Shown here: positions 18,782-28,435 of the stretch, piece after piece | Layout of the letters: every line of letters starts with the position of its first letter | Numbering within the stretch: position 1 is the first letter of the stretch | Assembly (NCBI GenBank): GCA_007121535.1 | Contig: SKKK01000189.1 | Coordinates: forward strand, 1 to 64,000 | Direction: 5' to 3' | Source of the DNA: Planctomycetaceae bacterium | GTDB taxonomy: Bacteria; Planctomycetota; Planctomycetia; Pirellulales; Pirellulaceae | Length of the DNA stretch: 64,000 bases | The notes under the pieces: generated by a model | Database searches by the model: none | What the model saw: only the letters and a program-made list of their open reading frames with translations | What the model was told of the DNA's origin: nothing | Made by a program: the position numbers and the translations under genes

Positions 18782-18966
18782 GGCTTCAGCTTTCCCTACG
18801 ATCGCCGGACGCCGATGGCGTCTTTGAGAAATCCGAACGATGGGTCGATCGGCTACAGACTTCGCGCGGTCAGTTCTGCACCAGGGCTTTGGCCGAATTT
18901 CTTGCACGACATGCGGACGAATGGTGTTCCGGCGGCGATGAATGCGGTGGTCGCCGAGGCCAGCGT
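18782..18966 (+). pseudogene. mazE-like antitoxin fragment
   Basis: The DNA is closely similar to the MazE-like gene at 28716-28952 and its relic at 31449-31628 (shared: CGGCTACAGACTTCGCGCGG, GGCTTTGGCCGAATTTCTTG). Here several small indels break the frame and the 3' part passes directly into a palindromic spacer repeat, in the same way as the 31.4-kb copy. Confidence 0.7.
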
Positions 18967-19620
18967 GTAAAACCCCGTTGGGGTTTGCTGGCACTCTCGA
19001 CTAACTCGGCAACCCAAGGTGCGCGGATTACCGCGACCTTGGGCTTTCGAGTTCCACGCCTTTAGCGTCACCGGAACACCGTCACGAATGCAGCGGAACA
19101 AACGGTTACGTCAATTCCGCTACGGTGATGGCCAACACTTCGTAGACCCCAAAGCTTGAACCAGTTCGGAGCGAGGATCTACGACCACATCGGCACCCCA
19201 CCCCAACGGGGCGCCATTCCGAAGCCCAGGGTCGCGGTACTCCGCGCACCCTGGGTAGGTGAATCGCAAACGATTCAAGCACCCTGAAGGGGTGCCACAC
19301 CGGGAAGAAGATTAGCACCGCGTGGGTTTCCAGGACGAGTTCCGACAATTGTGAACGAACATCGTGTGTCCATCGATGCATGATACGTTTGGGATTGACG
19401 AAATGTGTAAAACCCCGTTGGGGTTTAATCGTTTTTGAGGCGAACCGTCAAACCAGGGTGCGCGGAGTACCGCGACCCTGGCCTTTGGAGTGCAACGCCC
19501 TTGGCGTTGGCCGAACCATCGGCATCCCGCCCCAACGGGGTGCCATTCCGCGGACCAGGGTCGCGCAGTGCACCCTGGGCCAGCGAGAGACCGAAGACCA
19601 AGCACCCTGAATGCGTGCGA
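18967..19620. repeat. planctomycete-type palindromic spacer repeats
   Basis: A mosaic of short palindromes: TGTAAAACCCCGTTGGGGTT twice (near 18967 and 19404), CCAAGGTGCGCGGATTACCG / CCAGGGTGCGCGGAGTACCG and the inverted forms CCCCAACGGGGCGCCATTCC and CACCCTGGGTAGG. The same phrases return at 31627-31745. No coding content. The units read as alternating hairpins and occur next to mazE fragments in both places. Confidence 0.8.
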
Positions 19621-19774
19621 CACTCATTTCGTGTGACGAGCCAGCGGTACCGGTTGCGCGAAGAATCTTGGGACGAACAAAGGCGTTACGAAACGGACCT
19701 TTTCGACCTCCAGAATCCTGCCGATCCTGCCGGAACACATTAACGTACAGGCGAATTGGTTCATCACCGCTGCT

Positions 19775-20580
19775 TCAACCTCGGTCGTTCACATCGAACC
19801 CGTTCTGAGTCGCTTCCTCCAGGATCGCCGCCGCCCAACGCGCCTGGCGGATCGTCAGTGGCCATTGCTGCCGGATATGACGCCCGACATCGTACACGAA
19901 TTTGCGTTCTCTGCGATTCAGAGTGTCGTGCTCTTTGCCCCAGCGCGATAGTCGCATCCACATCACGTAGCCGAATCCGATCACGTCACGGATGATTCGA
20001 TCGTCCTCGCCAACCGCAATGTCTTTACGAACCGCCTCATCGATCGTCGAGGCAGCATCCGGCGGCACGTTTTCTGCGGCGACGGTTTGGATAGCCTTGT
20101 CGACGATCCGGCCAATCTCGCGTTGTCGGTTGGCATAGAAAGAACTGCCACGGACTCGCACAAACTTCCATCCACACCGCTCGAGCATCCGCTGCCGCGC
20201 CATGTCCGCTTCGTAGCGATCCGCGCCATGCCACTGGTCGCCATCGCATTCGACCGCCAAGCGAGCCTTGGTCCCTTCGACGACCAAGTCAATCCGCTTG
20301 CCAGCAGCCGGATACTGTGGAATCACTCGATACCCGGCATTGACCAACTCGGTCGCCACCTCGCGCTCAAACTCGCTTTCGCACAACGACAGATCTTGTG
20401 GTAAGACTTGCCCGGGCGGATGGTAGCAGTACTCCAACAAACGGCGACGCATACAATCCGGGTGGAGTTCGTTCGCCGAAACACTGTGGAACAGCCACAT
20501 CCCAGATATTGTAGCAGCAGTCCTTCCGGTCCCATTTGGCTGACTTCGTCGATAATCACAACATCGAAGGCGCTGCCTTG
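19775..20580 (-). pseudogene. superfamily 1 helicase with DUF559 nuclease tail, truncated
   Basis: A Walker B segment SAFDVVIIDEVSQMGPEG (about 20525-20575) is followed, after a frameshift and a missing middle, by the intact C-terminus MWLFHSVSANELHPDCMRRR, ESEFEREVATELVNAGYRVIP, DLVVEGTKARLAVECDGDQW and MARQRMLERCGWKFVRVRGS. This is the end of the large AAA_11/AAA_12 helicases that carry a DUF559/Vsr-like nuclease domain. The N-terminal helicase core is lost. Such helicase-nucleases are often in defence islands; this one is dead. Confidence 0.75.
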
Positions 20581-20589
20581 CACGGCGAC

Positions 20590-20893
20590 CGCTTCCGCTC
20601 TGCTGTTGGGCCAAGTAGTTCTGGGGTTCGGCCAGGAGATCCTGTTTGACGAACCGTTTGTGAGGCAAGGCGAAAAGCGGATATTCCGTGAAGACCGCTC
20701 GACAGTGGCTACAACGGAACCGCACACGCCAGGACAGGATGACTTGGACGAGGAACTCGTCGAGTTCCTGATCGAACACGCGAATGCGGAACTGGCGCCT
20801 GGCGCAGTCGTGCTTGGTGAGCAACTCGATCAGTTTCTGCCTGCGGATTGGCCAATCGGGATGTGATCGTTGACCAAAAAACACGCGTGGCAT
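20590..20893 (-). pseudogene. transposase-like zinc-ribbon fragment
   Basis: From ATG 20893 the frame reads MPRVFFGQ, WPIRRQKLIELLTKHDC, FRIRVFDQELDEFLVQVI and WRVRFRCSHCRAVFTEYPLF then ALPHKRFVKQ. A CxxC pair followed by F-x-x-Y/LP-x-FALPHKRY is the zinc-ribbon head I associate with DUF6431-like transposases. It breaks off into the helicase remnant around 20590, so an insertion element probably landed in, or recombined with, that gene. Confidence 0.5.
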
Positions 20894-20942
20894 GCCCACC
20901 GTGGGGCTGACTCCCCCACGCTTGCCAACGAAGCTTGAAATC

Positions 20943-22304
20943 TCAGGGCTGCCGGATGTCGATCGCGAAATGATTTTCGAACGCGCGGGGGATGGTTCGT
21001 TCGCCGGCCGGTTTTCCCGTCTCGATGGCTTCACGGATGTCTTCGATCACCAGTTTTGCGGATGCGAAGTAGCCGTGGCCCAGATCCAGCAAGCCGAAAC
21101 CGCCGACTTCGATGGTTTCGACGCCGTCGACGACCGTGACCGGAGGTACGTATCCGACACGACTGTGTTTATGTTTCCACTGCGACAGAAAGACGGCCTG
21201 GTCGTCGGGCGAGACGAACAGCGTGCGGCGTTCGAATTCGTGCGGATACCTGTTCACCGCGTCTTTGAACGTGCGCACGTCTTCATCGGGCGCGCAGAAG
21301 AAGACCTGACCAAGACGCAAGTTCGGCCGGCGATCGGCAACCAGTCGCTCCAGAGCCCTCAAGAATCCGCGATTGCCCATGCTGTGGACGAACAGATGGA
21401 TGCGTTCGGCTCCGGACCGCTCAGACAGCTCGTGCAGGAATTGGGCGATGTGCGGCACGCTGGCGGTGATCGTGGATTCGTCCGCCGAATAGGCGGGGAC
21501 CGATCCGTGCGAGGGCCAACTGTAGAACGCCATTTCGCCAGGCACTTTCAGGTCGTAGCCGACCTGTGCCGCCCGGACGGCGGCTTCCTCGAAACTGACA
21601 TTAAAGCCGTGAATCAAGACGAACATGTTGCGCTGTCCCGGGTTCCACCAGGTTTTCAGCTTGTGGGCCAGCCCCGCCCAGAACACATCGCGCGGCAGGG
21701 CGTGGATGCCGTGGACCCGCAGCGAGTCGTCGGCCTCCAAACGGATCCAACGCCGCCACCAGGCTGTACCGGTCGAGCCCGGTTTGTGGCTTTCCGGAAT
21801 GAACACGTTGCATACGCCGTAGGTCAGGCACTCGGCAGATTCTTCTGAGTTGAATCGCTCGACAATGTCGTCGAACTGGACGGGCTTGCGATCGGTCGCG
21901 AACCAGACCCGCACCAGTCGCCGGTCCGGATCGATCCAGACCTTCCCGTCAACGCTGCGTTGGACGCCTTCGAGCGCGAGGCTTCGCGGGACTTCTCGCC
22001 AGAGGAAGTGGTAGAGGGTCTCGCAGAGCGGTTCGAAATCGTTGTCCGCAAGCAGATCCCGCAACATCAGGAACTCGTCGGCCGCCTGAAAACCATCCGC
22101 ATCCGTAATCGCACCGGCGGCGATTTCGGCCAGCAGGGGCTGGAGGTCGATCAGACACGGATCGGGGACCAGCGTCGCGTCGGCGCCCATGCGAAGCGCG
22201 TAGCGGGCGGAACCCACCGCATCAATGGCGGACGGCCCAAACCACTGGCAAGTCAACGCCCCGGCCCGGGCATCGAGCCGAACCTGTAGGTGAAACGGTT
22301 TCAT
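20943..22304 (-). CDS. DUF900 alpha/beta hydrolase with unknown N-terminal domain
   Basis: A 453-residue protein. The C-terminal half (from about 128) is a DUF900 hydrolase: RRLVRVWFATDRKP, RNMFVLIHGFNVSFEEAAVRAAQ, the nucleophile elbow FVHSMGNRGFL (Ser about 308), an acidic residue in CAPDEDVRTF (about 345) and a final GHGYF histidine (about 418). The N-terminal ~125 residues (MKPFHLQVRLDARAGALTCQ ... LPLLAEIAAGAITD-like) match nothing I know. Ribosome site AAGGGAG before the ATG. Same strand as, and 1.9 kb downstream of, the CHAT-STAND-TPR gene; the space between holds REP repeats and a DUF559 gene. Possible lipase, esterase or effector activity. Confidence 0.82.
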   Translation of the reverse strand: MKPFHLQVRLDARAGALTCQWFGPSAIDAVGSARYALRMGADATLVPDPCLIDLQPLLAEIAAGAITDADGFQAADEFLMLRDLLADNDFEPLCETLYHFLWREVPRSLALEGVQRSVDGKVWIDPDRRLVRVWFATDRKPVQFDDIVERFNSEESAECLTYGVCNVFIPESHKPGSTGTAWWRRWIRLEADDSLRVHGIHALPRDVFWAGLAHKLKTWWNPGQRNMFVLIHGFNVSFEEAAVRAAQVGYDLKVPGEMAFYSWPSHGSVPAYSADESTITASVPHIAQFLHELSERSGAERIHLFVHSMGNRGFLRALERLVADRRPNLRLGQVFFCAPDEDVRTFKDAVNRYPHEFERRTLFVSPDDQAVFLSQWKHKHSRVGYVPPVTVVDGVETIEVGGFGLLDLGHGYFASAKLVIEDIREAIETGKPAGERTIPRAFENHFAIDIRQP

Positions 22305-22596
22305 TCAGCGAACTCCCTTCTTGTCCCCTCTCCCCCCGGAAAATTGGCGCGCAGGCGTTATCTTACATGAGGCGCGTGTTGCCGTCAATTTGCTGGCGGA
22401 GAGGGGACGTCCGCATTCGCCGGTCAGCGGAGCAGTGGCGTCGGGCGGCCAACGCTCGTTTCGCGTCTGATTCCCGCCGATTGTCTCCGTTTTTGTCCCC
22501 TCTGCCCCAAATCGTTGCCGCAAAGGGACTCGGAGTTCAGAAAACGGTTCATCGGACACGATTTGGGGGAGAGGGTTAGGGTGAGGGGGCCGCCTC

Positions 22597-22667
22597 GAAA
22601 CTCCAACTTCATTCTCAAATGTTTTGCAATGGCTATCGCAACTGCTTCGAGGTCTTCCAGAACATTT
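22597..22667 (-). pseudogene. DUF559 C-terminal fragment within REP array
   Basis: The minus strand reads NVLEDLEAVAIAIAKHLRMK then LEF, almost identical to the end of the intact DUF559 gene (DVLEDVEAVAIAIARHLKMK, LEF), and like it joins straight to a REP unit. Only the last ~22 codons remain. Confidence 0.75.
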
Positions 22668-22935
22668 CTGGCCCCCTCACCCTAACCCTCTCCCCCAGAA
22701 AATTGACGGGCAGAGGTTGTTTTGTGTGGAGGGCGTTTCTGCCGTCAATTCTCTGGGGGAGAGGGGACGTCCGCATTCGCCGGTCAGCGGAGCAGTGGCG
22801 TCGGGCGGCCAACGCTCGTTTCGCGTCTGATTCCCGCCGTATGTCTCTGTTTTTGTCCCCTCTGCCCCAAATCGTTGCCGCAAAAGGACTCGGGGTTCAG
22901 AAAACGCTCGATCTGCAACGATTTTGGTGAGAGGG

Positions 22936-23319
22936 TTAGGGTGAGGGGGGGCCCCTTCGAAACTCCAACTTCATTTTCAAATGTCTTGCAATGGCAATCG
23001 CAACGGCTTCGACGTCTTCGAGGACATCTTCGTTGCTGAACCGAAGCACGGTCCAGCCTTCCGCTTCGATTTTGGCTTGTCGCGAGACATCATTCGCGTA
23101 AACGTAGTCGTGATACCCACCGTCGATTTCGATGACCAGCTTCTTCTCGATACACGCGAAATCTACGATGAATGGTGGGATGGGACACTGACGGCGAAAC
23201 TTCAGGCGACACAACCGGCGTCCTCGTAATACGTTCCACAGAAGTGACTCTGCTTTGGTTTGTCGAGCACGCAGGTCACGGGCTTTTTCGGTCAGTTCAG
23301 GCTCTTGTCGGTGCGGCAT
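22936..23319 (-). CDS. DUF559 endonuclease-like protein
   Basis: A 127-residue Vsr-like (PD-(D/E)XK-fold) protein of the DUF559 family: RQTKAESLLWNVLRGRRL, LKFRRQCPIPPFIVDFACIE, KLVIEIDGGYHDY and EGWTVLRFSNEDVLEDVEAV. The catalytic acidic residues of DFxxxxxKLxIExDG are present. These are putative DNA nucleases of unknown physiological role. GGAGAC precedes the ATG. The last residues (EFRRGPPSP) are encoded by the adjoining REP unit, which also supplies the stop. REP units flank it on both sides, and a second DUF559 tail lies 300 bp downstream. Confidence 0.88.
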   Translation of the reverse strand: MPHRQEPELTEKARDLRARQTKAESLLWNVLRGRRLCRLKFRRQCPIPPFIVDFACIEKKLVIEIDGGYHDYVYANDVSRQAKIEAEGWTVLRFSNEDVLEDVEAVAIAIARHLKMKLEFRRGPPSP

Positions 23320-23880
23320 GGCCGTCTCCTCCAGACCATTGATGGGTGGACGTTAATCTTATATGGGCCGCGTCTTGCCGTCAATTCTTCGTGGGAGTGG
23401 GGACGGCGGAATTTTCTGCTCTCCGGCCCCCTCACCCTAACCCTCTCCCCCAGAAAGTTGACGGGTAGAGGTTGTTTTGTGTGGAGGGCGTTTCTACCGT
23501 CAATTTTCTGGGGGAGAGGGGACGTCCGCATTCGCTCCCCGGAGCAGTGGCCTTGGGCGGCCAAAGCTCGCCGTTTGGGCTCCGGTCCTCGACCCTCCCG
23601 TTCTTGTCCCCTCTCCCCCAAATCGCTGCCGGAATTAGACTTTGGGTTCAGAAAACGTTCGATCGGCAGCGATTTGGGGGAGAGGGTTAGGGTGAGGGGG
23701 CTGCCCCGGGCGCCTCTAACTCGGCTTCCCCCTTCGAAACTCGGCTTTCTCGGTCAGTCGGGGGCAACTGTTTGGGGGAAAGGGGACGGCGGATTGTGCG
23801 GTGTATGGCCCCCTCACCCTAACCCTCTCCCCCAGAAAATTGACGGGCAGAGGTTGTTTTGTGTGGAGGGCGTCTCTGCC

Positions 23881-24141
23881 GTCAATTTTCTGGGGGAGAG
23901 GGGACCAGACCTTCTCCCGCTGGGAATTGACGGGTGGAGGGTGTTTTGTCTGGAGGGCGTTTCTGCCGTCAATTTTCTGGGGGAGAGGGGACCAGACCTT
24001 CTCCCGCTGGGAATTGACGGGTGGAGGGTGTTTTGTGTGGAAGGCGTCTCTGCCGTCAATTTTCTGGGGGAGAGGGGACCAGACCTTCTCCCGCTGGGAA
24101 TTGACGGGTGGAGGGTGTTTTGTGTGGAAGGCGTCTCTGCC
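23881..24141. repeat. 87-bp tandem repeat, three units
   Basis: Three head-to-tail units start at 23881, 23968 and 24055, each GTCAATTTTCTGGGGGAGAG ... CTCCCGCTGGGAATTGACGG ... GGCGTCTCTGCC, differing at a few positions. The unit is the inner part of the REP type 1 hairpin plus a new linker, so local amplification happened inside the array. Confidence 0.9.
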
Positions 24142-24217
24142 GTCAATTCTTTGGGGGAGAGGGGACGTCCGAATTCGCCGGTTGGTGGGGCTGTGGCGTT
24201 GGGTTGCTGGGTTCGGA

Positions 24218-27200
24218 TCATGGGTTCGGTTGGTGCTCCGACGGCAGCAGGGCGGATAGGGTGGTGGGATCGGCAATCGCGCGGAGGATGGTTTCGATGA
24301 TCATGGATGCGGTCAGCCCAGCGTTTTCGCAGAGGCGTTGTTCGTCACGCTCGCCGGCTAGGATGTTCTCGATCGCATCGGCACAGGCGAGCCACTCGCC
24401 ACCACCCTGGCGCATCGCGCCGACGTAAGCGGCAACCAGGTCGCGGAAGTCATCTTGGCCAGCGCATACGGCAACGACGGCGGCGATCAGTTCAGCATAT
24501 TGCTTCATCTCGTGGGCCGTGCCGGCGAAGTTTCGTTTGGCTTCGCGAGCGAGTTGGCGGTATTCGGCGGCCCGGTCGGGCTGCGACTGCCCGTCGGCGA
24601 TTTCGGCCAGGATGTTGTAGGTCGTCCAGATCTCCGCGGCGCCGGGATCCAGGGTCTTGTCGATGGCCAAGGCCTCCTCGGCCAGTTCGCGGGCCTCGTC
24701 CAGACGTCCCGGCTGGGTTTGCAGGAGAGCGGCGAGGTTGCTGAGGCGTTTAGAGAGGCCGACGTTATCCCCGGTTTTCCGACCGCCGTCGATGGCCTTG
24801 CGATACCAGCTCTCCGCTGCCTCTGGCTTTCCGGCTGACTTGTTCACCAGGCCCAGACTGTTCCACGTGGTTGCGGCTCCGGCCAAGTTGCCGAGTTGTT
24901 CTTCCAGTCGGGCCGACTCCCGATAATGGTGCTCGGCTTGCTCCCACTCCTGTGCTCGCCGAAACGCCATGCCAAGCTGGTGCTGGGCGACGGCTTCCAT
25001 CGCGGGTTCGCCCAGACGCTGGAACAATTCGAGGGCTTCGTGGTAACGCTTTACGGCGTCGGCGAGATCGCCTTCCACCATGGCCAGCGTGCCGAGTTGC
25101 CCGAGGATGACGCCTTCGGTACGCGCGTCATTCACTTCCTTGATGCTCTCCAAGCCCAGTTCATATTGCGCACGGGCCTCGGCGTATTTGCCTTGAGCCG
25201 TCAACACATCGGCCAGGTCCGTTCGGAGCACACCGCGTTTTTGCTTGACTTCATCAGTCGGCTCCAGTTGCTCCGTCACCGCAATGCCTTGCTGATAGGT
25301 AGCTTCCGCCAGATCGGGCCGACCGCCGGAACGGTAGCAGCGGCCTAAGTCGACAAGGGTCTTCGCCTGATTGAAGGATGGCTGATCTCCGAGTGTTTCC
25401 AGGATGTCGGCAAAGATCTCGGCGGCCTGCTGCACGCGGCCGGCAGCCCGCAGTTGTTCGCCGCGGCTCGATTGCGCGAGAAACCAGGCCTGCGAACCGC
25501 GCTGGCCGCCGGCTTGTTCGGCGCGGCCGGTCAGCCGAGCCGCTTCGCGGGTCATGCCGAAGATGGTGAGGAACCGGTTGACGGCCTCTACAAACTCGAC
25601 CGCATCGGCATCGCGGGCGTCCAGGGCGCGGTCGACGGCGTACAGCAGATTCGGCAGTTCACGTCGGGCGATGGCCCGGGCCTGATGCGGGTTCTGCCGG
25701 TCTTCGTGATAGAGGTAGCTCGCCAGGGCGTAGTACCGCTGGCGATGGGCGGTGGTCAGCGCGTCGCGCTCGTCGGCCGCCAGACCGGACCAGAGCATGG
25801 GGGCCAGCGTGGGATGGAAGCGGAGGAAGGGCGGGCCGACGCCCGGAATGCTCTCGGCTTCGATCAGAGCGGCCGCTTCCAACTGGCGGCGCAAGCCGGG
25901 CCAGACGTTTTCCGCCGCCGGGTCGGGCAAGCTGGCCAACCGGGCCCGAAGCTGCTCGATGTGTTCCTGGAGTTCGGGATTCCCCTTAAGCCGCGCCAGC
26001 AGTTCGGCCGGGATTTCGGCGTCCTCGGGGATCTCCACTCCCATCAACCGGAGCAGGACGCGCGGGTCGCCGCTTTCCAACGCCGCCAGCAGCGCCTGGA
26101 GTTGCTCGCGCTGGTCGCTTTCGCCCAGTTCGGTGATGGCCAGCAGATCGTCTTCAAACGCTCCGCCTTGAAACACACCCAGACGGCGGACGGCGTGGCG
26201 CTCGCGCTCGCTCAGGCGCTCCAGCGAGAGTTCCAGCGAGGCGATCAGGCTCCGCGGCGTGCCCTCGACCGCGATGCCGGACGTGGCCGCTTCGCTCAAG
26301 ATCTGTTCGAGCCGCTCGCCGAGCTTCCTGGCCGTGCGGCTCTTGAGCTGCTGGGCCAGCACGCAAATCGAAAGCGGATGAAAGTTGACGCGGTCGAACA
26401 ACTCGATCAGTTGCTCGCGCTCGGGGAGCGGGACGCCGGGCTCCGGCGGCAACTTGCTCAGCTCGCCAAACCAATCGAGGGCATCGTCGGGATAGGCCGC
26501 CGAGCCCAATCCTTCCAGGGCGATGCGACGATGGATCCGCGTGCCTTCGATGCGATAGTCGGGATGGCCGAAATCCGGAATCCGACTGGTCAGCAACACG
26601 CGCGAGTCGCCCGCACAGGACCAGGCCACCGCGGCGGTCAACAGTTCTTGCAGGGCGTCCGGCCGGGCCGCGACGGCGGGGTCGGGTGACCCGCGCCGAG
26701 CGAGGAGGAGCGATTCCAGGTTGTCCAGGACGACGAGCGTCGGGGTTTCGCGGAGGGCCTCGGTGGCTGCGTCGGCGTCGATCAGCGACCGCTGGAGAAC
26801 GCTGCCGATCGTGCTGACGGCCACGGAGCAGGCGTCTTCGGCTTGCACTTGCGAGTAGTCCACGAAGACCGCGCGCTGGAACCGGCCCGTCCGGACCAGC
26901 CACCGCGCGGCTTCCAGGGCCAGCTCGGTCTTGCCCTGGCCGCCGAACCCGGTGATGGAAATGCGCCGCGTTTCCGGTGCGGCAAACCAGCAGGCGATAT
27001 CCCACAGCTCGCGCCGCCGCCCGAAGAACCCGGCTTCGTGCTCCGCCCGCAGATTGTGCTTCACGTGGCCCGGCATCTCCGAGGCCGGAACCGGGTCTCG
27101 GAGAGACTCGGCCACGTGTGCCGGCTTCAGCAGCGGCGAATCGGCGCCGCCGTGGAACAGGGCCGGGAGAAACCAGTCGGCCAGCTCCAGCATCTGCCAC

Positions 27201-28435
27201 TGGTCGCCGCGCCGGACCTTGTATTTCTCGGGGTTGTTGGCCAGATAGGTGCGGGCATCATCCAAGGCCGTGGCGATGCCCCGGCCGCGTGCCAGGCTCT
27301 CGTAGAACTTGCCGAACAACATCCGCGTCGTAGGAACAAGCACCGCATGGGTCATCGCCAGGATCGCTGGGATGCCCGTGGTGGTCAGCCGTCCGGCCAT
27401 GCTGGCCATCGGATCGCCCTGGACGTCCAGAGCGGCCGTCTGGCACGCGGACAGAACCACCAGTCCGACTCTGGACCGGTACAGGTTCTCGGCCAAATCC
27501 TCGGCGGGGATCAGATGCGTGCGGCCATCCTCCCGCTCGAAGACCAGAAAACCGATCCCGACGCGTTCCCCGGCTGCCCCGTCGCCCCGGACCTGGCGTT
27601 CGCGCTGGATTTCGCTGAGGATCGACTTGCCGAACAGGGCGGGGGCCTTTTTGGCGTCCTCTTCGGACACCTGCCGAAAAACGCCATGTCCGTCGAAATG
27701 CAGGATGTCGACGGACGGCTTGGTCTCGTCATCCAATCGCTCGACAAGCGCATTGAGCGTCGCAGGCCGCAGGAATTCCCAGGTAACGCGGCCGGGCGCG
27801 TGTTTCTCCAGGGCGTCCAGCACCGCACGGGGATCGGCCCGCGGATCGATGAACCCGGCATCGGTCGGACGGCTGACGACGAACAGCAGGTGCAGGCGGT
27901 CTTTGGACTCGACGCGGAACGGTTGACGGCCGCCCGTGGCTCCGGAAATCCTGCGGCGGACGCTGATGTGCGGTTTTTCTCGAAACAGGAAAGTGCCGGA
28001 CGGATCGTGCAGCAGTTCCCAAGGCAGCGCGAGGATCGAGGCGTCCTGGGAGTTGATGGTCAGCACGCGTTGCCGGTCGTCGGCGTCCTGAAACCGGTTG
28101 AACAGACGCTGCGCGGCGCGATTGTCGAACACGGCGTGGAACAGTGCTTTGCCGATCTCGGGCAACCGGGCCCTGATGCGGCGGGCCTCCTGATCGTCCG
28201 GAACGGCCAGCGACACCGCACCGTACGTTTCGACGTACCAGCGGATGTCGAGCCGATCCTGCTCGGTGACCGGATTGGCGAAGTCGAGTTTCCCGGAATC
28301 GGTGCCGTCGAACGAGACGTTGACCTCGGTACTGCTGGAAAACCGGAGAGCGAGTTCCGTGCCGTTCATATCGATCCACCCCCAATGACAACGGGCCGTT
28401 TCGCGCGACAGGAGTTCCACGGTGTTCTGCGGCAT
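24218..28435 (-). CDS. CHAT protease - STAND NTPase - TPR protein
   Basis: A 1405-residue protein with three modules. Residues about 130-430: CHAT caspase-like protease, with SVDILHFDGHGVF (catalytic His about 250) and SRVGLVVLSACQTAA (catalytic Cys about 331). Residues about 470-800: STAND/NB-ARC NTPase, with FGRRRELWDI, the P-loop ITGFGGQGKTELAL (496-503), Walker B TLVVLDNLESLL and LTSRIPDF. From about 900 to 1320: TPR repeats (e.g. GDLADAVKRYHEALELFQRL, AESWYRKAIDGGRKTG). In known STAND systems TPRs sense a ligand, the NTPase oligomerises, and the effector domain is switched on; a CHAT effector would cleave a target protein. An alternative ATG at 28369 (MNGTELALRF) has a GGTGGA site. Catalytic and P-loop residues are intact. 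The downstream DUF900 hydrolase is on the same strand. Substrate and trigger are unknown. Confidence 0.9.
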   Translation of the reverse strand: MPQNTVELLSRETARCHWGWIDMNGTELALRFSSSTEVNVSFDGTDSGKLDFANPVTEQDRLDIRWYVETYGAVSLAVPDDQEARRIRARLPEIGKALFHAVFDNRAAQRLFNRFQDADDRQRVLTINSQDASILALPWELLHDPSGTFLFREKPHISVRRRISGATGGRQPFRVESKDRLHLLFVVSRPTDAGFIDPRADPRAVLDALEKHAPGRVTWEFLRPATLNALVERLDDETKPSVDILHFDGHGVFRQVSEEDAKKAPALFGKSILSEIQRERQVRGDGAAGERVGIGFLVFEREDGRTHLIPAEDLAENLYRSRVGLVVLSACQTAALDVQGDPMASMAGRLTTTGIPAILAMTHAVLVPTTRMLFGKFYESLARGRGIATALDDARTYLANNPEKYKVRRGDQWQMLELADWFLPALFHGGADSPLLKPAHVAESLRDPVPASEMPGHVKHNLRAEHEAGFFGRRRELWDIACWFAAPETRRISITGFGGQGKTELALEAARWLVRTGRFQRAVFVDYSQVQAEDACSVAVSTIGSVLQRSLIDADAATEALRETPTLVVLDNLESLLLARRGSPDPAVAARPDALQELLTAAVAWSCAGDSRVLLTSRIPDFGHPDYRIEGTRIHRRIALEGLGSAAYPDDALDWFGELSKLPPEPGVPLPEREQLIELFDRVNFHPLSICVLAQQLKSRTARKLGERLEQILSEAATSGIAVEGTPRSLIASLELSLERLSERERHAVRRLGVFQGGAFEDDLLAITELGESDQREQLQALLAALESGDPRVLLRLMGVEIPEDAEIPAELLARLKGNPELQEHIEQLRARLASLPDPAAENVWPGLRRQLEAAALIEAESIPGVGPPFLRFHPTLAPMLWSGLAADERDALTTAHRQRYYALASYLYHEDRQNPHQARAIARRELPNLLYAVDRALDARDADAVEFVEAVNRFLTIFGMTREAARLTGRAEQAGGQRGSQAWFLAQSSRGEQLRAAGRVQQAAEIFADILETLGDQPSFNQAKTLVDLGRCYRSGGRPDLAEATYQQGIAVTEQLEPTDEVKQKRGVLRTDLADVLTAQGKYAEARAQYELGLESIKEVNDARTEGVILGQLGTLAMVEGDLADAVKRYHEALELFQRLGEPAMEAVAQHQLGMAFRRAQEWEQAEHHYRESARLEEQLGNLAGAATTWNSLGLVNKSAGKPEAAESWYRKAIDGGRKTGDNVGLSKRLSNLAALLQTQPGRLDEARELAEEALAIDKTLDPGAAEIWTTYNILAEIADGQSQPDRAAEYRQLAREAKRNFAGTAHEMKQYAELIAAVVAVCAGQDDFRDLVAAYVGAMRQGGGEWLACADAIENILAGERDEQRLCENAGLTASMIIETILRAIADPTTLSALLPSEHQPNP

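Follow-up and report, generated by a model that had tools for sequence, protein, structure and literature searches.

Short DUF559 genes across bacteria are, for the most part, framed by inverted copies of a tag-plus-hairpin repeat. The type of that repeat matches the type of the protein, and its copy number tracks the cognate gene, although phylogenetic caveats apply to both patterns. Because this small, widespread gene (ycjD in E. coli) is framed by its own repeat type across many phyla, and because copy number tracks the gene, we regard it as a strong candidate for the spreader of a large class of orphan repeats. We think it likely that short, YcjD-type DUF559 proteins are REP-associated nucleases, forming selfish or semi-domesticated units with their own tag-plus-hairpin repeat family. 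We also hold, a little less firmly, that the EDxHD nuclease family DUF559 is probably the dedicated mobiliser of widespread REP-like repeats (BoxC/TM and relatives), and that it evolved independently of the RAYTs.

The window, by which we mean the whole stretch of 64,000 nucleotides that was analysed, is contig C191 of a planctomycete genome of 9.32 Mb in 706 contigs. The core CCCTCACCCTAACCCTCTCC matches the window six times between positions 22566 and 23832, three times per strand and with at most one mismatch, where 0.01 matches are expected. Every core comprises the tag plus the first hairpin arm of one REP-like unit. Such a unit is a tag CCCCTCACCCTAACC followed by a long hairpin whose arms of 23-24 bp have 32 nt between them. 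Compared with shuffles, and counting duplex folding only, the folding z-score is -7.3 for the first hairpin type and -7.5 for the second. The features of the locus are as follows.

20943..22304, minus strand: neighbouring gene for a DUF900 alpha/beta hydrolase, duplicated with the block, with a remnant on contig C192
22323..22408, strand not assigned: decayed REP hairpin beside the DUF900 start codon (61% repeat match)
22495..22588, minus strand: REP unit on the 3' side of the tail remnant
22590..22668, minus strand: DUF559 tail remnant between inverted REPs (87.7% nucleotide identity to the gene tail on contig C528; 89% in the repeat search; 79% amino-acid match)
22673..22768, plus strand: REP unit on the 5' side of the tail remnant
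22855..22948, minus strand: REP unit on the 3' side of the intact DUF559 gene, tag facing the gene
22936..23319, minus strand: intact DUF559 gene (YcjD/COG2852-type, EDxHD/Vsr-like) for a putative nuclease of 127 aa (PF04480, E = 8.5e-36; E24, D53, E64, D66, H70 and D77 present)
23428..23523, plus strand: REP unit on the 5' side of the intact DUF559 gene, tag facing the gene, in the opposite orientation to the 3' unit
23606..23699, minus strand: REP unit of the second hairpin type (AAATCGCTGCCG arms; folding z = -7.48)
23810..23905, plus strand: REP unit of the first hairpin type, opening a tandem array (folding z = -7.34)
23906..24166, plus strand: three more hairpins without a tag, in tandem with a period of 87 bp, locally amplified
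24218..28435, minus strand: neighbouring gene for a CHAT-TPR protein, duplicated with the block, with a copy on contig C528

The intact gene is flanked by inverted REPs whose tags both face the gene, and the tail remnant has a frame of the same kind. The C-terminus of the intact protein, KLEFRRGPPSP*, extends into the REP tag, which provides the TAA stop; the tail at 22590-22668 (minus strand) likewise meets its REP after KLEF. The initial annotation was correct in that both the gene and the tail end in REP units after KLEF. The remnant is an internally deleted derivative of the DUF559 cassette. The 87-bp tandem array of tagless hairpins spans 23891-24178.

Two other observations concern the same window. 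At 19775-21034 (minus strand) lies a C-terminal piece that resembles DUF4011-type antiphage proteins (Hhe, ProA) and carries an MTES_1575/DUF559-like nuclease domain; this domain belongs to another branch of DUF559, and no REP frame is seen around it. At 18900-19650 there is a second, unrelated set of repeats, in which units around GGTGCGCGGAGTACCGCGACCCTGG and ACCCCGTTGGGGT recur imperfectly in direct and inverted orientation.

A search for the 22-nt core across the whole 9.3 Mb genome yields ten copies in three contig places: the window, the edge of C192 and the edge of C528. No REPs are found by this search outside the DUF559 block and its duplicate. C192 and C528 hold pieces of a paralogous block, including a CHAT-TPR gene (86.7% nucleotide identity), DUF559 (83% nucleotide identity) and a DUF900 remnant (87% amino-acid identity). 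This block has a second intact DUF559, with 93% amino-acid identity to the window gene, and the C192 edge carries a DUF559 tail together with the DUF900 remnant. The two edges are probably one duplicated DUF900-DUF559-CHAT/TPR locus (window 20943-28435), split by the assembly. The association within this genome is therefore one ancestral event that was subsequently duplicated. It had been argued that the boundary between KLEF and REP is conserved twice; both joins are real, but because the block is duplicated they partly reflect one ancestral event that was copied. Since the repeat is confined to the DUF559 block and one duplicate, the genome by itself proves little. We reject it as sole proof, the second and third repeat sites belonging to one duplicated block, and the general claim of a link between DUF559 and REPs depends on other genomes.

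We therefore turn to 80 DUF559 loci from across bacteria, chosen by protein similarity alone, in which 79 genes were scored. The 250 bp upstream of a gene were locally aligned to the reverse-complemented 250 bp downstream of it, with a threshold of 14, so that the score is agnostic to the sequence of the repeat. Inverted repeats stand on both sides within 250 bp in 58 of 79 DUF559 genes (73%), as opposed to 6 of the 932 neighbouring genes (0.6%); 1.0% of random windows pass, and weighting the 58 genera or groups equally gives a DUF559 rate of 73.6%. The link proposed from a single locus thus generalises. The repeats are of the tag-plus-hairpin form, and a hairpin stem of at least 8 is present on at least one side in 95% of DUF559 genes versus 34% of controls. 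About a quarter of the DUF559 genes are without paired repeats, most of these having a one-sided repeat. As the initial annotation had anticipated, REP cores are enriched near the gene: their density is 4.76/kb within 150 bp of DUF559 versus 0.02-0.10/kb (about 0.05) from 300 bp outward, roughly a 100-fold difference.

The association also holds within one phylum. Of 149 genomes of Planctomycetota, 16 have the repeat, 26 have DUF559, and 11 have the two together (Fisher p = 1.4e-6). Hairpin repeats lie immediately beyond the ORF, mostly two-sided and inverted and in a variant that differs per genome, in nearly all of the short DUF559 genes of this phylum, which share 35-50% identity with the query; a helicase-fused DUF559 (L070) has no such hairpin repeats outside its ORF. 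The loci of Sinorhizobium and Deinococcus have the same layout, and in Picosynechococcus and N. gonorrhoeae there are repeats on either side of the gene. Dispersed repeat copies, from 1 to 143 per genome, occur in 30 of 40 DUF559 genomes.

The repeats differ between genomes, and we can ask how their types and numbers relate to those of the protein. In Rhizobiales, two DUF559 clades each go with their own repeat type, ATCTCCCC or CTTCTCCCC; the type A and type B clades of Mesorhizobium show 79% identity within and 52% between. Of 61 Mesorhizobium genomes, the 45 with an A-type enzyme hold 22-201 A-repeats (median 91), whereas the 16 without it have a median of 6.5 (p = 5e-7, a descriptive value that ignores strain relatedness). 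Six of these 16 have no A-repeats, and no genome with the A-type enzyme has zero. Other DUF559 types are present in 14 of the 16. The remaining ten genomes without the A-type gene still hold 1-92 A-repeats, for example G230 (92) and G275 (29), and among the Planctomycetota G145 has 52 repeats with no cognate gene detected; many repeats without a cognate gene could be remnants after gene loss.

A similar pattern is seen for BoxC in 60 evenly spaced E. coli genomes, where genomes with ycjD have a median of 17 BoxC places (10-27) and those lacking it a median of 4 (1-15) (p = 9e-10, again descriptive and ignoring strain relatedness). This contrast is phylogenetically confounded: O157:H7, without ycjD, has about 12-14 BoxC copies. 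The unit adjoining ycjD is multicopy and 37 nt long, with a C-rich head and then the matching hairpin. The sapF-fabI site is occupied either by ycjD or by the eef operon (PMC12817139). Directly upstream of ycjD (L077:2951-2996) is a palindrome, CACCTCATTCTGACAAAAGATTAAATCTTGTCAGAATGAGGTG, which is unlike BoxC and is possibly an operator or an alternative end. In none of Planctomycetota, E. coli and Mesorhizobium, then, are the repeats equally common without DUF559, the outcome that had been named as speaking against a DUF559-mobilised repeat.

The window protein covers the whole PF04480 domain (positions 3-108 of 109). Four residues, E24, D53, H70 and D77, are invariant across 21 DUF559 sequences, and all are present in the window gene. 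Its AlphaFold model (pLDDT 83) matches 3HRL, which is N. gonorrhoeae NGO0050 and itself a DUF559 protein (Z = 16.2), followed by the homing endonuclease I-Bth0305I (Z = 12.9) and Vsr (Z = 10.3); sequence profiles match 3HRL (E = 2e-34) and 3R3P (E = 7e-6). It falls within the EDxHD/Vsr group and has a predicted role as a nuclease. It shares its catalytic fold and the conserved E, D, H and D with I-Bth0305I and Vsr, and I-Bth0305I is encoded by mobile DNA, as we propose for DUF559. These relatives differ in setting: DUF559 is a stand-alone gene of 110-130 aa between hairpin repeats, whereas the others are intron-encoded or mismatch-repair genes.

Signs of mobility come from comparing orthologous sites, where relatives show both gene cassettes and repeat doublets to be present or absent within repeat boundaries, as the empty sites sought after the initial annotation should be. 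At the hppD-hmgA junction of Xanthomonas, most of 35 genomes have the arrangement hairpin-tag-DUF559-tag-hairpin, with the hairpins about 412 bp apart. Six genomes are without DUF559, and all six carry a single hairpin at the exact same spot. Such a pattern can be produced by insertion at a hairpin or by deletion between two hairpins. In Sinorhizobium, a REP-DUF559-REP block lies between two genes that adjoin each other in Shinella. The dispersed A-repeats of Mesorhizobium are doublets of about 158 bp, arranged as tag-hairpin-spacer-hairpin-tag, and a comparison of sister species shows orthologous sites that either hold a doublet or lack it cleanly. At the best-resolved of these sites (L213 versus L229), no target duplication longer than about 4 bp is apparent between the diverged sequences. 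The orientation of the tags is opposite in the gene cassette and the doublet, and a single mechanism must account for both. L111 and the surroundings of E. coli ycjD likewise contain duplicates of the gene tail adjoining REPs, as the window does. In L226 and L227 (Mesorhizobium), the hairpins of a doublet are lost while both outer tags are kept, that is, a doublet was internally deleted at an orthologous site. A plasmid search for empty sites in Azospirillum found only filled ones.

The single hairpin at each of the six Xanthomonas sites fits another explanation as well, in which the REPs are landing sites: a DUF559 protein of the homing type would cut existing hairpins and its gene would be copied in, the REPs having spread by other means. 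That I-Bth0305I is the closest characterised structure after NGO0050 agrees with this idea. We nevertheless consider it unlikely. The genome of the window offers no other REP targets, the gene-less doublets are mobile too, and the type and number of the repeats follow the type of the cognate protein, which would not be expected of passive targets.

The Vsr fold raises a further alternative, namely that DUF559 is a Vsr-like enzyme of mismatch or very-short-patch repair, and that the hairpins are terminators, insulators or incidental. Genetic evidence has led to the proposal that VsrA of Caulobacter, a DUF559 protein, is a repair nuclease (PMC12907096). Yet a Caulobacter DUF559 locus (L139) itself lies between inverted hairpins, flanks of this kind are almost absent from other genes in the same loci, and the repeats are genome-specific, fit the protein clade and also occur scattered away from the gene, all of which makes this explanation improbable. 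Slightly less probable still is the idea that DUF559 keeps REPs in check or makes them tolerable, in that it processes hairpins extruded as the DNA replicates and thereby retains the repeats without moving them: the tracking of copy number with the gene and the instability of hairpin-containing DNA (Holder 2015, PMC4666352) are in keeping with it, but it leaves unexplained the inverted frame of the gene and its gain or loss at repeat-bounded sites.

We return, then, to DUF559 as a mobiliser, for which the RAYT-REP system is the known analogue (PMC3733652; see also PMC2817692). Like DUF559, a RAYT (TnpA-REP), with its GTAG REPs and REPINs, is one small gene between inverted copies of a hairpin repeat. 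Both systems have numerous non-autonomous repeats away from the gene, single or as doublets, and the repeat variant fits the enzyme variant; such dispersed copies are present in other DUF559 genomes and absent from that of the window. The enzymes themselves differ, DUF559 having a PD-(D/E)XK/EDxHD nuclease fold and RAYT being an HUH tyrosine (Y1) transposase. The repeats differ also: in the window and the other loci read, DUF559-linked units have no GTAG foot but a C-rich tag of 12-15 nt. The DUF559-REP system thus resembles RAYT-REP in how it works but lies outside that family. A RAYT is not required, and we reject it as the true mobiliser, as Y1_Tnp is absent from G034 (a complete genome) and from G084, both of which have DUF559 and REPs. 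Among the Y1 matches and repeat places listed, the two do not coincide except for one Y1 fragment in G033. This transposase fragment (G033:C66:13146-13909) lies directly beside a REP-linked DUF559, the only such case among the matches listed.

A REP superfamily with CGTC tags has reportedly been described, by Di Nocera in 2013, as having no dedicated transposase. Those repeats carry CGTC feet, whereas the DUF559-linked repeats carry C-rich tags, and a link to CGTC REPs, sought in the DUF559 flanks, was not found. The repeat of the window is instead of the same class as BoxC, PIT and the G/C-rich intrastrand triplex motif (TM), with which it shares its tag-plus-stem sequence; E. coli BoxC sits at the 3' end of ycjD. 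This class is known from more than 260 genomes, with 23 copies in K-12, and mobility genes near BoxC and triplex-motif repeats were not found (Holder 2015, PMC4666352). In a literature search whose coverage leaves out most subscription papers and preprints, nothing was found that links DUF559, COG2852 or ycjD to REPs. What is new here is a strong candidate for the enzyme of a repeat class that was already known: so far orphans, these repeats are tied to DUF559 by the present analysis.

We infer that the repeats are mobilised by DUF559, as the initial annotation suggested, and that DUF559 serves the BoxC/PIT/triplex-motif repeats as RAYT transposases serve GTAG REPs. The nuclease would recognise the tag and the hairpin once replication or repair has left these extruded or single-stranded, and would nick at or near the foot; host replication or repair may then copy or delete the REP-bounded segment. 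Gene cassettes would be the autonomous segments, while REP doublets and gene-tail remnants, as in the window, would be non-autonomous by-products. In the window, one cassette lies between the DUF900 and CHAT-TPR genes; it has left the tail derivative, been amplified locally and been duplicated with its block. While the association, the matching of types, the tracking of copy number and the repeat-bounded presence or absence are observed, the nicking, the direction of cause and the intermediates are inferred.

By tying the repeats to DUF559 we can propose a function for a nuclease family that lacked characterisation, and the tie offers an explanation for the widespread 'PLTLTLSP' peptides that the repeats encode. 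Since E. coli K-12 carries ycjD along with 23 BoxC units, the question is directly testable there. If our reading is true, systems that pair REPs with an enzyme have at least two separate origins, in enzymes unrelated to each other.
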